A stretch of 49,645 nucleotides of DNA from a bacterium (GTDB lineage Bacteria; Hinthialibacterota; Hinthialibacteria; Hinthialibacterales; Hinthialibacteraceae), in the NCBI GenBank assembly GCA_016125385.1, contig WGLV01000067.1, forward strand, positions 1 to 49,645, written 5' to 3'. The position numbers and the translations under genes are program-made. Position 1 is the first letter of the stretch, and the number at the start of each line of letters is the position of its first letter. Below, in pieces: positions 23,932 through 29,840 of this stretch. Under the pieces are notes generated by a model. It did not search any database. It was not told the DNA's origin and saw only the letters and a list, made by a program, of their open reading frames with translations.

Positions 23932-25110
23932 TTACGCCGCGCCGGGAAAGGGATGCTTCGCTTCTTCAATCGAGAGCCCGCTGATTTCGACCTGGCTCAG
24001 GTCGCCGGTCCCCACCCCCGCCTGGTGCGCGGCGAGAATATGATTGATGCATCGGTTAAACGGAGCGCTCGACCGATGATTCGCTAACGGATTTGAATAC
24101 CCCATCACCGCTGTCGCGGCCGCGTCGGTCGAAACCGGGTTCAGACCCGCGATGATGACGCCCGCTTTTTCCAGCCGCAGGTTGCCGCCCCGGCGGTTCC
24201 ACGGACCTTCGCCACCGCTGATCGTGCTGATTCCATCCACGATGGCCAGGTCGATCGGCCGTGCGTCGTTGATGTCCGTTACAATGTACGGTACGCGAAA
24301 ATGGTCGTTCTGATCGCTGAATCCTTCTTTTTCGCCTTCCGCGCTGAATCCGCGTGAATAGTGCAACTGTTTCCCGCGTCCTTTTTCCGCGTTTTCTCCG
24401 GGGTCGTCTCCATAGATCGAATTAGGCGTGATGCCGAACAGGTTTTTCATGGAGAGCGTGACGCCGGCGGTGGCGTGATTCTTCATCTTCGCCAGTGAGA
24501 TGAAAACATCCGTGTCTTCGTATGAATGATTCAGCATGAAGTGGTCGAACATATAACCGCCTGATTTTGGTTTAAGCGTCGCGTATTTCTTTCCTTTGCC
24601 CAGGTTCCGGGTGTTTTCAAATTCCACCTCGCCCAGCGATAGTATGGAGTTGACGTCCCATCCCGCTCGTCTGGAGGCGAATACCTCCAGCGTCTCGCGC
24701 GCGGGCGCCGATTCGACGATGCGCACCCGCCTGGCGCCGTTGTCGAACAGAATCGCCGTCAGCGCCTTGACGCTGTTTTCATGCGTTACGTAGGTCTCAC
24801 CGCATGGCAGGCCGAACATGACCGGAAAATCTTCGCCGGTCAGGTTGACCTTGATTGTGACCGTCTTGTTTTTTACCAGCGTTCCGATGCCGCCCAGCCC
24901 GTCGAAACATTCCTCCATCGCGCTTCGAATTCCCGGGCCGTAATCACCGCATCGCGCAATCGAGACCCGGGCCGTGTTGAGGCGGATCGGTTTGTTTTCG
25001 GTTGGCTCGATCTGAGCCATGCGGCCCGAACCGCATGAATAGAGAAGCGGCGACGCGGCGCTCAGGGCGCCGGCCGCGAGAAACGCCCGGCGGTTAATTC
25101 GTTCAGACAT
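23932..25110 (-). CDS. Tat-exported DUF362 domain protein
   Basis: 392 residues from the ATG at 25110 (MSERINRR). The ATG six bases earlier sits directly against GGGAG, so the second ATG has proper spacing. A twin-arginine signal (INRRAFLAAGALSAASPLL) ends in YSCGSG, possibly also a lipobox. The body is DUF362: VKVNLTGED near the N-terminus, NGARRVRIVESAP, DVFISLAKMKNHATAGVTLS and MKNLFGITP, then DLAIVDGISTISGGEGPW and PVSTDAAATAVMGY. Members are predicted metal- or Fe-S-associated proteins of unknown activity. There are no ferredoxin Cys motifs here. Export in folded form suggests a bound cofactor. The gene stands alone between intergenic spaces. Confidence 0.85.
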   Translation of the reverse strand: MSERINRRAFLAAGALSAASPLLYSCGSGRMAQIEPTENKPIRLNTARVSIARCGDYGPGIRSAMEECFDGLGGIGTLVKNKTVTIKVNLTGEDFPVMFGLPCGETYVTHENSVKALTAILFDNGARRVRIVESAPARETLEVFASRRAGWDVNSILSLGEVEFENTRNLGKGKKYATLKPKSGGYMFDHFMLNHSYEDTDVFISLAKMKNHATAGVTLSMKNLFGITPNSIYGDDPGENAEKGRGKQLHYSRGFSAEGEKEGFSDQNDHFRVPYIVTDINDARPIDLAIVDGISTISGGEGPWNRRGGNLRLEKAGVIIAGLNPVSTDAAATAVMGYSNPLANHRSSAPFNRCINHILAAHQAGVGTGDLSQVEISGLSIEEAKHPFPGAA

Positions 25111-25437
25111 ATCCATCTCCCAAAAAAAACAAAGAATACCAATACCTTATCCTCGCGGCGCAACCCGCCGCGCTGGAACGTGGAGAAACGAAGCGAAGAA
25201 CGAACGCTGGCGTGATGAGTCGGAGGCTTCGTTAACCGGGTGAGTCGTTCAATCAGGCGTCATGGTTCACTATTTTGATCGAAGATCATTAAGTTGCAAA
25301 ACGTTAATTAAAAAGTTCAACCGTTTTTGCATTCCGGTGCGTCTTATCTTTGTGTAGATACGATTAAAAATTTTAGTTGTAAATCGGATTTTATTTGCTT
25401 TAATGCTATGAAATAGTACTTTTGCGAAGCGTGGAAT
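25111..25437. other. Divergent spacer, no gene seen
   Basis: About 330 bases between the DUF362 start and a rightward gene. The right half (25265-25400) is AT-rich and probably holds promoters, but no hexamer pair stands out. The leftward frame at 25270-25752 is an antisense shadow. Confidence 0.4.
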
Positions 25438-25893
25438 ATGGTGAGTGATCCTGAATACACCGTGATGAGGTTTTGTTTCGTGCAAACCGCGGCTGTCGTC
25501 GTTTTCAGTTTGATCTACGCTCCCCTGCTTTTTGAGGCGGCGCCGCTTCTGATGGGATTCCCGATCCCGTTTCATTCCGCCGTTTATGCTTCCATGTTGA
25601 ACGCGTTCTGCGTCGGGCTGCTGATCGCGACGGTGTGGCGGGTGAGCCTTCACGATGGACGTCCAGTGGTCGGCGTAATGATCCTGCTCGCGGTCCTCGT
25701 ATCGCTCGTTTGCTCCGGCCTCTGGGGAGTCTTGCTCTCCAACCCCGATCATACGCCCATCGGGCTCTGGCGGGGCATGGCTTTGTATTTCATGGTGAAC
25801 GGGGCGTTATGCGCCGCGCTTTGTCTGGCGGGTGTTGGCGCTCTGCTGTTCGCAACGTTGACGATTGGCCGAGGTCAGGTCACCGGGCGGTAA
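25438..25893 (+). CDS. Small membrane protein with four predicted helices, unknown function
   Basis: 151 residues. Four hydrophobic stretches at about 10-36, 45-65, 78-98 and 111-142 are separated by short loops, among them WRVSLHDGRP and LSNPDHTPIGLWRG. No family recognised. The ribosome site before the ATG at 25438 is weak; an in-frame ATG at 25465 (MRFCFVQTAA) is an alternative that still keeps all helices. Its 3' end overlaps the convergent FRG-domain gene by 19 bases. The membrane pattern, unlike the antisense frames, supports a real gene. Confidence 0.55.
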   Translation: MVSDPEYTVMRFCFVQTAAVVVFSLIYAPLLFEAAPLLMGFPIPFHSAVYASMLNAFCVGLLIATVWRVSLHDGRPVVGVMILLAVLVSLVCSGLWGVLLSNPDHTPIGLWRGMALYFMVNGALCAALCLAGVGALLFATLTIGRGQVTGR

Positions 25894-26696
25894 TGCCGCG
25901 CCAGCCAGTCCGCCAGCCCGTCCAGCCCGGGGAACAGAATCCGCTCGGTGATGTTCGACTGATCGAGCTTGTCCCGAATTTCCCACTTCAGCTCTCTTGG
26001 AATAATGATGCGGCGGAACAATTGCGGCCGTTCACGCAGCCACGTGTGCAACCCGGCGAGGGGGCTCGACATCACCGAAAAAAAGGCGAACTGGTTGACG
26101 ATGCGTTCGTCCAGCGAGGGCGGCTCGAAAAACAGCGCCATCGGCTCCGGGCTTAGTTGGTCGTAATCGAAGATCTCGGGCAGAGCGCGCTCGATCATCT
26201 CCAGCGTGAAGGCGTTCGATCCCTCGCCTTCCAGCACGTCGCGCAAAGGCGGCGGCAGAAGACGGTTGGTCTCGACGTAGTTCACCGCCCAGATCGCGCC
26301 GTCGAGGTCGTATCGAAAGGTGTTGGCGGTGGCGAAATGCAGCGCCACGAAGGGAGAGTATGTCCAGTCGAGCAGCCGTGTGGGCAGCCCGTGATGCTGG
26401 GCGATGGTGATCCATCGCCAGTCCGAAAAATGAGCGTTGCCGCCCTGGATCTCCGCGTATTTCTTGAAATTGCGCAACAGGTGATATTCCAGTTGCGCCT
26501 TGCCACGGCATTGCCGGGCGAAGCTCGGGCTCAGGTCGTACGCCCGGTCCGAAACGCCCCGGTAGGCGTAATTCGAGCGGAACCGCCCGATGACCGGCTG
26601 CCATGAGTCCTGAAACAACTGCTCGCAGACTTCCGGCCAGCTGTGGACGATAACGTCGTTGGGCGTCGCGTCGATGAGGTCCATGAGGCCTTCCAT
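25875..26696 (-). CDS. FRG domain-containing protein
   Basis: 273 residues. The FRG domain is named for its F/Y-R-G motif, here AYRGVSD at 44-50, followed by PSFAR and the strong signature QHHGLPTRLLDWTYSPFVAL (100-119), then AIWAVNY. The function of FRG proteins is not settled; they occur alone, and some occur within phage-defence loci. The ATG at 26696 has no clear ribosome site; the ATG at 26684 is preceded by GGAAGG and may be the true start. Lies 36 bases downstream of purM in the same direction, so it is probably co-transcribed, an unusual partner for purine synthesis. Confidence 0.85.
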   Translation of the reverse strand: MEGLMDLIDATPNDVIVHSWPEVCEQLFQDSWQPVIGRFRSNYAYRGVSDRAYDLSPSFARQCRGKAQLEYHLLRNFKKYAEIQGGNAHFSDWRWITIAQHHGLPTRLLDWTYSPFVALHFATANTFRYDLDGAIWAVNYVETNRLLPPPLRDVLEGEGSNAFTLEMIERALPEIFDYDQLSPEPMALFFEPPSLDERIVNQFAFFSVMSSPLAGLHTWLRERPQLFRRIIIPRELKWEIRDKLDQSNITERILFPGLDGLADWLARHYRPVT

Positions 26697-26732: not shown

Positions 26733-27755
26733 TTATATCTCGACCGTAACCCGGTCTCCGGCGATGACTTCGCCCGCGATGACGCCTTCCTCGAACAGGC
26801 TCCTCAATGTATCGCCGTCTTTTTCGCTGACGATCAGAATCAACCCGATCCCCATATTAAACACCCGGTACATTTCGTTTGGGTTAACCTTGCCAAGCGT
26901 TTGCATCAGCATAAACAGCGGTGGAGGCGTCCACGCGCCTGCGTTCACTCGCGCCCCGCATCCCTCGGGCAGGATGCGGTTGATGTTGCCTTCAAAGCCG
27001 CCGCCGGTGATATGCGCCACGCCCTTGATCGTGACCGCCGCGCTCGCCTTGTCGAATTCCGCAAGATAAGACCGGTGAGGTTCAAGCAGGACGTCGCCCA
27101 GCGGGCGTCCCAGTCCGTCAGGCGTTGACGAGAGATCGAGTCCGGCTTCTTCCAGCAGGATCTTGCGCGCCAACGTGTAACCATTGGTGTGCAGCCCAGA
27201 CGAAGGCAGCCCGAACAGTACGTCGCCAGGCTGGATGCTCTTTCCGTCGAGGACGCCGTCACGCTCCACCGCGCCGATTATCGTCCCCGCCAGGTCGTAT
27301 TCGCCGGGGGCGTATACGTCCGACATCTGGGCGGTTTCGCCGCCGATCAGCGACATCCCCGCCGCCCGGCACGCGTCGCTCATGCCTTCCACCAGTTGCA
27401 GAAGCACATTGTTATCCAACTTGTGGCAGGCGAAGTAATCGAGAAACATCAGCGGCCGCGCGCCGCAGCACAGCAGGTCGTCGATGCAATGGTTTACCAG
27501 GTCCATTCCGATTCCGCGGTGCTGGCCGTGAGCGGAGGCGACCTTCACCTTCGTGCCCACGCCGTCGACGCTGGAGACCAGCACCGGCGATTTCATCTTC
27601 AGATCGTCGAGTGAAAACATTCCGCCGAACGCCCCGTCGCGATGCAGAACGCGCGGGGTGAAGGTGTTCCGGCATAATTCGGCGATTCGTTTCTTGACGC
27701 GGTCTCCCGCGTCGATGTCCACGCCCGCCTGGGCGTATCGGCTTGATTCGGTCAT
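26733..27755 (-). CDS. purM: Phosphoribosylformylglycinamidine cyclo-ligase (AIR synthetase)
   Basis: 340 residues from the ATG at 27755 (MTESSRYAQAGVD), preceded by GGGAAGG; the longer open frame upstream is not used. PurM makes aminoimidazole ribotide from FGAM and ATP in de novo purine synthesis (cytoplasmic). Signatures: YAQAGVDIDAGD at the N-terminus, SSVDGVGTKVKVA, DLVNHCIDDLLCCGARPLMF, GGETAQMSDVYAPGEYDLAG, GLPSSGLHTNGYTLAR and HITGGGFEGNINRILP. Full length for the family. Follows the cyclo-ligase/TsaE fusion by 91 bases in the same direction; both folate and purine enzymes bear on one-carbon and purine metabolism. Confidence 0.96.
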   Translation of the reverse strand: MTESSRYAQAGVDIDAGDRVKKRIAELCRNTFTPRVLHRDGAFGGMFSLDDLKMKSPVLVSSVDGVGTKVKVASAHGQHRGIGMDLVNHCIDDLLCCGARPLMFLDYFACHKLDNNVLLQLVEGMSDACRAAGMSLIGGETAQMSDVYAPGEYDLAGTIIGAVERDGVLDGKSIQPGDVLFGLPSSGLHTNGYTLARKILLEEAGLDLSSTPDGLGRPLGDVLLEPHRSYLAEFDKASAAVTIKGVAHITGGGFEGNINRILPEGCGARVNAGAWTPPPLFMLMQTLGKVNPNEMYRVFNMGIGLILIVSEKDGDTLRSLFEEGVIAGEVIAGDRVTVEI

Positions 27756-27846: not shown

Positions 27847-28941
27847 TCAGGGCCGAGTGGGGCCTGCCCCATGCAGCCCCGCTTGTGAAACGAGAGGCGT
27901 GAACAGCGTCCATCGCCGCGCGCCGTTGGGAAGAATCTCACCGAACAGGTGTGCGGCGTTGCGAGGCGTCAGCGCGCCGAGCCGTTCGCCCCACTCCACC
28001 GCCGTCACCGCGTCCGCTTCGAACATTTCGTCCCAATAATCGATTTCCTGCGCGGGGATCTCATCCAGCCGGTAGAGGTCGGCGTGATACAGCGTCGCGT
28101 CGCCGTGATATTCGCGGCAGTAGACGAAGGTGGGGCTGGCGGCCGTTTCGCGGGTATGCAACGCCTTCGCCAGACCGTCGGCGAATCGCGTCTTTCCCGC
28201 GCCCAGTTCACCGTGCAGCAGCAGGACGCCGCGCCGCAATCCGTTTTTCACCAGCCGTTCCGCCAGCGCCTGCGTCGCGGATTCATCGGCGCACTCCACC
28301 GCCGAAACGAGCGGCTCATAAGACGCCGCTTCACTGACGATGGCGTCGACCGGGACGTCGTGCGCCTCCGATTGAATGGCGTGAACGATCTGGAATTCAA
28401 ACGCCAGCGCGATGACGCGCGCTTCCCGCCGTTTTTCCTGCAGAATGCGATCGTAATAACCGCCGCCGAAACCGACCCGCCCGCCGAATGGATCGAACGC
28501 CGCGCCGGGCGCAATAAACGCATCCGCTTCGTGCAACGCGGTTCGCTCGCAGCGCGCCGGATCGGGTTCGCGAATCCCGAACGCGCCTCTCACGCTCAGG
28601 TCGTTAAGCGATTCCACCCGATAAAAAGCCGCGTGTTGGCCTTCGATCCGGGGAAATAACACTCGCGTCCCGCGAGTCAGAAGGGCGTCCGCGATGGTAT
28701 TCGTCTGAACTTCGTCCGCTGTGGATGCATATAGCGCGATGCAGTTCGCCCGCTCAATGTCCGGCGTCGTCAACAGGCGTTCGGCGATGCGTTCGCTCTT
28801 GCGCGCCGTCAGCCGGGCGTCCTGCGCCCGCCGCTTCGCCAGCATGGCTTTGCGCAGCGTCTTCTTGTCAGTAAGCCCGTTGTCGCCGAACGCGCGCCGT
28901 TTCAGGTCCATCCATTCCGGATACGTGAGTTTCAACGTCAT
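27847..28941 (-). CDS. Fusion: 5-formyltetrahydrofolate cyclo-ligase + TsaE ATPase
   Basis: One uninterrupted 364-residue frame. Residues about 25-205 are the cyclo-ligase (MTHFS/YgfA), which converts 5-formyl-THF to 5,10-methenyl-THF with ATP: KKTLRKAMLAKRRAQD, VLFPRI, GIREPDP, and the ATP/folate loop GFGGGYYDR (157-165), then VPVDAIVSE. Residues about 211-345 are TsaE (YjeE), the ATPase needed for tRNA t6A formation with TsaB/TsaD: Walker A GELGAGKT (244-251), SPTFVYCREY, LYHADLYRLDE and AVEWGERL. Each half carries its family's key motifs. The first 24 residues precede the usual cyclo-ligase start; the ATG at 28941 has only a weak ribosome site and lies 20 bases after a terminator, so an internal ATG (28911) is possible. 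Confidence 0.92.
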   Translation of the reverse strand: MTLKLTYPEWMDLKRRAFGDNGLTDKKTLRKAMLAKRRAQDARLTARKSERIAERLLTTPDIERANCIALYASTADEVQTNTIADALLTRGTRVLFPRIEGQHAAFYRVESLNDLSVRGAFGIREPDPARCERTALHEADAFIAPGAAFDPFGGRVGFGGGYYDRILQEKRREARVIALAFEFQIVHAIQSEAHDVPVDAIVSEAASYEPLVSAVECADESATQALAERLVKNGLRRGVLLLHGELGAGKTRFADGLAKALHTRETAASPTFVYCREYHGDATLYHADLYRLDEIPAQEIDYWDEMFEADAVTAVEWGERLGALTPRNAAHLFGEILPNGARRWTLFTPLVSQAGLHGAGPTRP

Positions 28942-28961: not shown

Positions 28962-28990
28962 AAAAAAACCGGCGTACAGCCGGTTTTTTT
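28962..28990 (-). terminator. Rho-independent terminator after the TPR gene
   Basis: AAAAAAACCGGC and GCCGGTTTTTTT are perfect complements with loop GTACA. The A/T-flanked symmetric form works on both strands; it follows the leftward TPR gene. Confidence 0.85.
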
Positions 28991-29013: not shown

Positions 29014-29715
29014 TTACTGGATCGCTTTGACCGGCTGCGCTTTCAGCCATTCCAGCCGTTCCAGCGCGAAGTTAAGCCAGGGCGAGTCTTGCGCGATCGA
29101 TTCATACGCCTGAACCGCTTCATCGGTGCGGCCCAGGTCTTCGAGACAACCGCCTTTCAGATAGAGCACCTGGTTTTTCAACTCGTCCGTCTTCGCTGAA
29201 GCCATCAGCGCGTCCACTTCCTTCAGCGCGTTTTCCGGCTGGCCCAGGCTGCGATACGCCTGAATCATCGCAAGTTCGATCAGGTTCTTTTCTTCGGGCG
29301 TTTTCACGGCGTTCAGCGCGTCCTGATATTCCTTCAACGATTCATCGTAGCGCTTCATGTTATAAAAGCAGTTCCCGCGCATCAGATGCGCCTGAACGGC
29401 GACCTGCGAACCGGCGTGCTCACGCAGTACCGAGTTGAACTTCTCCAGCGCCTGGTCGTACTGATCCTGATTCAGCAGTGACATGCCGTTGGCGAAGGTC
29501 AGTTGCGCCAATTCGTAATCGGCCTTCGACTGAACCTTGTAATAAAATCCGGCCGCGGCCACGACGGCCACGACGGCGATGCCGATCATCAGGTTCTTGC
29601 CGTACTGTTCGAAAAACGTACGGGCGTTTTCGATAAATTCCTGAAGATGGACTTGAAGATCGTCTTCTTTCAGACGCCGTTGCAGTTCTTTATGATCGAG
29701 TTTCGAGGCGGACAT
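29014..29715 (-). CDS. Membrane-anchored TPR protein (YfgM-like layout)
   Basis: 233 residues from the ATG at 29715 (MSASKLDHKE). A basic/acidic cytoplasmic N-terminus (about 1-40, predicted helix) precedes one membrane helix (41-59, NLMIGIAVVAVVAAAGFYY). The rest, about 65-230, is extracytoplasmic tetratricopeptide repeat, with A..FANGMSLLNQDQYDQAL, HLMRGNCFYNMKRYDESLKE and LKGGCLEDLGRTDEAVQAYE. This layout matches YfgM-type proteins, which assist the periplasmic chaperone network at the Sec translocon; BamD-like or generic TPR roles are also possible. Has its own terminator. Confidence 0.8.
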   Translation of the reverse strand: MSASKLDHKELQRRLKEDDLQVHLQEFIENARTFFEQYGKNLMIGIAVVAVVAAAGFYYKVQSKADYELAQLTFANGMSLLNQDQYDQALEKFNSVLREHAGSQVAVQAHLMRGNCFYNMKRYDESLKEYQDALNAVKTPEEKNLIELAMIQAYRSLGQPENALKEVDALMASAKTDELKNQVLYLKGGCLEDLGRTDEAVQAYESIAQDSPWLNFALERLEWLKAQPVKAIQ

Positions 29716-29840
29716 ATCCTGAGAAATCCCCTTACAGATAAAGTATGACGCACGAACCAACTATTCTGGCCAGACCGGTTCGATTCGTCAATGCGCGCGA
29801 TGGATGATTTCCACGCGGCGCCGCGATTCCAGACGGGCGC

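Follow-up and report, generated by a model that had tools for sequence, protein, structure and literature searches.

5-Formyltetrahydrofolate (5-formyl-THF) is a dead-end inhibitor of folate enzymes. This compound is cleared by 5-formyltetrahydrofolate cyclo-ligase (MTHFS, or 5-FCL), which thereby removes an inhibitor of folate metabolism (PMC3223725) and is normally a stand-alone protein of ~190 amino acids (aa). TsaE (YjeE), also normally a stand-alone protein (~130-200 aa), is a weak ATPase that competes with tRNA for the TsaD-TsaB complex and resets this complex at each turnover (PMC9654439). Several fusions of t6A genes have been described, namely alr-yjeE in Clavibacter, yeaZ-rimI-ygjD in Coriobacterium and hydrolase-yeaZ in Dehalococcoides; these were read as hints of interaction, and clustered or fused t6A arrangements were said to be restricted to gram-positives (PMC3571937). 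A published MTHFS-TsaE protein was not found in the literature searched, which covered few subscription journals or protein databases, and the matches that combined TsaE with cyclo-ligase merely mention both terms. The DNA analysed here very probably comes from OLB16, or Candidatus Hinthialibacterota, a phylum with genomes of 3.4-7.5 Mb (PMC11382960).

One reading frame holds MTHFS and TsaE

The window (the whole stretch of 49,645 nucleotides under analysis) contains a single unbroken frame of 364 codons on the minus strand in which the two families are joined:

27847..28941, minus strand: MTHFS-TsaE fusion gene (364 aa, ATG start)
28330..28866, minus strand: MTHFS domain, residues 26-204 (PF01812, TIGR02727, fold match 2jcb)
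28291..28329, minus strand: junction, residues 205-217 (AASYEPLVSAVEC), modelled within a continuous beta strand (207-217)
27952..28290, minus strand: TsaE ATPase domain, residues 218-330, with Walker A GELGAGKT (PF02367, TIGR00150, folds 5np9 and 6s84)

In Pfam, PF01812 matched residues 26-204 with 131.5 bits (cut-off 27) and PF02367 matched residues 218-330 with 98.2 bits (cut-off 26.6). The NCBIfam equivalog models TIGR02727 (MTHFS) and TIGR00150 (TsaE) scored 157.1 bits (cut-off 84.9) and 86.5 bits (cut-off 60.1), respectively. These scores confirm the preliminary description of the locus, which had read a full cyclo-ligase and a full TsaE from one 364-residue frame. All four motifs that it had named were found (GFGGGYYDR at residues 157-165, GELGAGKT at 244-251, SPTF at 269-272 and EWGERL at 316-321), and the strand, which it had not given, is minus. 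The MTHFS half, when aligned to 1sou and 1ydm, has K..LR at its N-terminus as well as the PG..FD..G.R.G.G.G.YD motif, and the TsaE half carries the Walker A, switch SPTF, D-x-Y-R and EW motifs. A frameshift at the junction, which had been raised as a possibility, was looked for and is absent, with 11 other genomes having the same continuous frame. The fusion is genuine, and the predicted product of this frame is one protein that holds both complete enzymes.

AlphaFold gave a compact two-domain model of the window's fusion (mean pLDDT 91, pTM 0.89), in which no floppy or disordered linker is present, and a model with pLDDT 88 and pTM 0.86 for a relative that is 33% identical to the window's protein. 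One 11-residue strand bridges the domains in both models (residues 207-217 in the window's protein). The MTHFS half matched 2jcb with a TM of 0.87-0.89 on target, the fold of the TsaE half matched 5np9 and 6s84, and neither half had other significant fold matches.

Whole-genome searches of the genome to which the window belongs (G000, 95.8% complete) found exactly one TsaE and one MTHFS, both in the fusion gene, and no second tsaE or second MTHFS. The check for a separate tsaE elsewhere in this genome thus came out in favour of the fusion, since there is no stand-alone tsaE beside a decayed fusion half. The partners of TsaE are encoded on contigs C35 (TsaD) and C24 (TsaB).

Conservation within the phylum

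We sampled the phylum with 14 genomes, G000 included. An intact fusion with MTHFS at the N-terminus, TsaE at the C-terminus and a near-constant junction is present in 12 of the 14, from four families, and the eleven other intact proteins are 30-53% identical to that of the window. Across all 14 genomes no MTHFS or TsaE copy above cut-off was found beyond the fusion. In G011 (L017:1474-2583, minus strand) the frame runs on past the junction but is interrupted within TsaE, close to Walker A; this interruption may reflect a sequencing error (indel) or decay. Neither TsaE nor MTHFS was detectable in G010 (92% complete), where TsaD (L133) and TsaB (L132) are present. Because a neighbouring gene for a TPR-repeat protein (probed with the TPR protein of G012) is also missing from G010, this absence likely reflects a missing chromosome segment rather than the loss of an essential gene.

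Twelve MTHFS residues (K26, R30, E77, P145, G146, F149, D150, R155, G157, G159, G161 and D164) and ten TsaE residues (L246, G247, G249, K250, T251, S269, D288, R291, E316 and W317) are invariant across the 12 intact fusions. Within one genus, dN/dS was 0.15-0.19 for the MTHFS half and 0.04-0.18 for the TsaE half, and between G000 and its relative G001 the values were 0.29 and 0.15, respectively. With dN/dS well below 1, both halves are under purifying selection. The sequence of the junction drifts: G000 and G001 have different codons at 11 of its 13 positions.

An alignment-based scan of genome contigs matched 'Omnitrophota bacterium SURF_12' (QZKN01000170.1) together with stand-alone MTHFS genes, and a single-sequence scan of the same contigs gave no match. 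The OLB16/SURF_12 lineage had been misassigned to Omnitrophica (PMC10066038).

Searches outside the phylum

Outside the phylum ~370 genomes were sampled, at about one to three per family and thus not exhaustively, and none of the matches listed spanned both MTHFS and TsaE. One of these listings comprised the best ~150 matches, among which a fusion would be expected to rank high. For 47 of the outside genomes, every strong TsaE match lay in a frame of ~130-220 aa. Since tsaE was found within 5 kb of only two (L057 and L094) of 79 stand-alone MTHFS loci from other bacteria, a neighbourhood of MTHFS and tsaE is not general. At L094 (4992-6784, plus strand), from Streptococcus ovuberis, the stand-alone MTHFS and tsaE genes lie on the same strand, ~0.8 kb apart.

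On inspection, a match reaching residue 271 (L061) was no fusion, and a long MTHFS frame (L130) lacked any further Pfam domain and resembles read-through in a GC-rich frame. Two other long MTHFS frames outside the phylum are RarA-MTHFS rather than MTHFS-TsaE proteins. They come from two genomes of one genus (L128:3-1697, plus strand; L129:1589-3499, minus strand) and combine RarA/MgsA (MgsA_C, 211-225 bits) with a C-terminal MTHFS (152-158 bits) in one frame.

Gene neighbourhood

Directly downstream of the fusion lies tsaB in nine of the 13 fusion-bearing genomes, G000 not among them; the identity of tsaB was checked by TIGR03725 in five of the nine and for the tsaB of G000 itself. The spacing between fusion and tsaB, measured in eight genomes from the nearest plausible starts, ranges from -7 to +23 nt. 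This adjacency suggests that the fusion is co-expressed with tsaB in the relatives. In G000, tsaB sits on a different contig and not directly downstream of the tsaE part; the operon argument thus fails for this genome. The co-regulation that had been proposed earlier is therefore suggested by these relatives but not by the window's own genome, where the place held by tsaB in relatives is occupied by purM:

29014..29760, minus strand: gene for a TPR-repeat protein (TPR_21-like), upstream of the fusion, a neighbour kept in several relatives
28962..28990, minus strand: GC hairpin with flanking A and T tracts, seen in the sequence that separates the fusion from the TPR gene
26733..27755, minus strand: purM, downstream of the fusion, with a likely start at 27755, 91 nt past the fusion stop

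The hairpin is located ~20 nt upstream of the fusion ATG and has a folding z-score of only -1.2; judged from its sequence, it is terminator-like, or possibly an attenuator. Adjoining purM, the window also encodes an FRG-domain protein (25875-26696, minus strand) and, at 23932-25116 on the same strand, a DUF362 protein with a twin-arginine-like N-terminus (RRAFLAAG).

Discussion

We think it likely that this locus encodes a bifunctional housekeeping protein which originated from a single joining of neighbouring genes in the phylum ancestor and which was then kept, with halves that are probably independent of each other. The N-terminal half is predicted to act as an ATP-dependent MTHFS that converts 5-formyl-THF to 5,10-methenyl-THF. 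The C-terminal half would be a TsaE ATPase that docks on TsaD-TsaB, comes off again and so resets the t6A-synthesising complex. As both active sites are conserved and neither enzyme has a backup copy, both jobs are most likely carried out by the fusion. The order of fusion and then tsaB in the relatives makes it likely that MTHFS was attached at the 5' end of a tsaE-tsaB pair: an MTHFS gene beside this pair would have lost its stop codon, once, in the phylum ancestor, and the product would have been passed down ever since as the sole copy of both enzymes. The two halves would do their ordinary jobs independently while having dosage, transcription and cellular location in common.

A single fusion event is most likely, the main argument being the shared domain order and near-constant junction. 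The trees leave one versus several events unsettled: an unfinished quick tree of the MTHFS half requires three changes, and in the tree of the TsaE half the fusions form one group with zero support. The suggestion in the preliminary description that the genes are simply joined neighbours has become the simplest reading, in the form of neighbours that were joined and then retained. Had the fusion brought no benefit, its retention throughout the phylum would be mildly surprising, because fusions can split again.

A rival reading is a functional coupling of the halves, with MTHFS riding on TsaD-TsaB-TsaE, or with folate or ATP occupancy of one half altering the docking or ATPase activity of the other, so that translation dependent on t6A would be tied to one-carbon status. 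The retention of the fusion throughout the phylum as the sole copy would fit this reading, as would the compact two-domain model, which predicts a continuous strand over the junction and no flexible linker; moreover, TsaE docks and undocks, excluding tRNA, so that a bulky partner could matter (PMC9654439). However, no fusion appeared among the matches listed from the ~370 genomes outside the phylum, stand-alone MTHFS is seldom near tsaE (2/79 loci), and the junction sequence drifts. In addition, both MTHFS and t6A genes join other neighbours as well, as in RarA-MTHFS and the other t6A-gene fusions, which weakens any special link between MTHFS and TsaE. We therefore regard coupling as rather unlikely. 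That the MTHFS half is a permanent working subunit of the t6A complex, whose folate or ATP state tunes the docking of TsaE on TsaD-TsaB such that t6A follows one-carbon status, seems quite improbable. The physical link proposed in the preliminary description stands in so far as the sequence predicts one polypeptide, phylum-wide and single-copy. The proposed connection of folate status to translation fidelity found no support, the association being absent from the sample outside the phylum and tsaE being near so few MTHFS loci.

It is very unlikely that the MTHFS half has been repurposed, as a scaffold or a related enzyme, and is no longer a cyclo-ligase. There is a precedent in the 5-FCL-like (COG0212) proteins, one of which has no detectable 5-FCL activity and takes part in thiamine salvage (PMC3223725), but the window's protein scores 157 bits against the 84.9-bit cut-off of the equivalog TIGR02727, its ATP/folate motif is fully conserved, and G000 has no other MTHFS. 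Internal initiation or proteolysis might yield separate MTHFS and TsaE proteins from the one frame. A few weak start codons do occur near the junction in some members, the sole candidate in the window being a GTG at residue 215. This codon is not conserved in relatives, no internal start codon at the junction is conserved among the relatives compared, and two relatives have no ATG, GTG or TTG across the 40-residue junction stretch; together with the lack of a disordered linker in the predicted model, this makes a two-protein product extremely improbable. An assembly or frameshift artefact might be suspected, given that the phylum genomes are drafts, probably metagenome assemblies, and that G011 has a broken TsaE frame. 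The chance of this is vanishingly small, as the artefact reading is refuted by independent genomes with the same open frame: it is seen in 12, the others being 30-53% identical to the window's protein.

In this phylum two unrelated housekeeping enzymes are thus fused as a single-copy gene, so that making the folate-repair enzyme there would always entail making the t6A ATPase as well. Should the halves communicate, one-carbon metabolism would be linked directly to a tRNA modification; if they are independent, they offer a clean case of joined neighbours retained over a long time. The fusion may in addition be useful as a signature gene of the phylum.

The fusion is a new domain architecture built from two well-known families. 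With MTHFS/5-FCL (TIGR02727, PF01812; B. anthracis 2jcb, A. aeolicus 1sou, human 3hy6) it shares sequence, the full domain, the catalytic motif and the fold, but the known enzyme normally stands alone instead of being fused to TsaE, and the MTHFS half in the window's family has an N-terminal helical extension, unlike the usual MTHFS. With TsaE/YjeE (TIGR00150, PF02367; B. subtilis 5np9, T. maritima 6s84, 6n9a) it shares the full domain, the Walker A, SPTF and EW motifs and the fold. Whereas known TsaE is normally stand-alone, here a longer protein has it as its C-terminal half, and the TsaE halves of the fusions are more diverged, at 83-110 bits versus 115-137 bits for the best stand-alone copies. 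The RarA/MgsA-MTHFS proteins likewise combine MTHFS with an unrelated P-loop ATPase, but in these MTHFS occupies the C-terminus and is joined to RarA. The alr-yjeE, yeaZ-rimI-ygjD and hydrolase-yeaZ fusions likewise join a t6A subunit to a neighbouring housekeeping enzyme (PMC3571937); unlike in those, the partner here is MTHFS, and the fusion extends through a whole phylum that lies outside the gram-positives.
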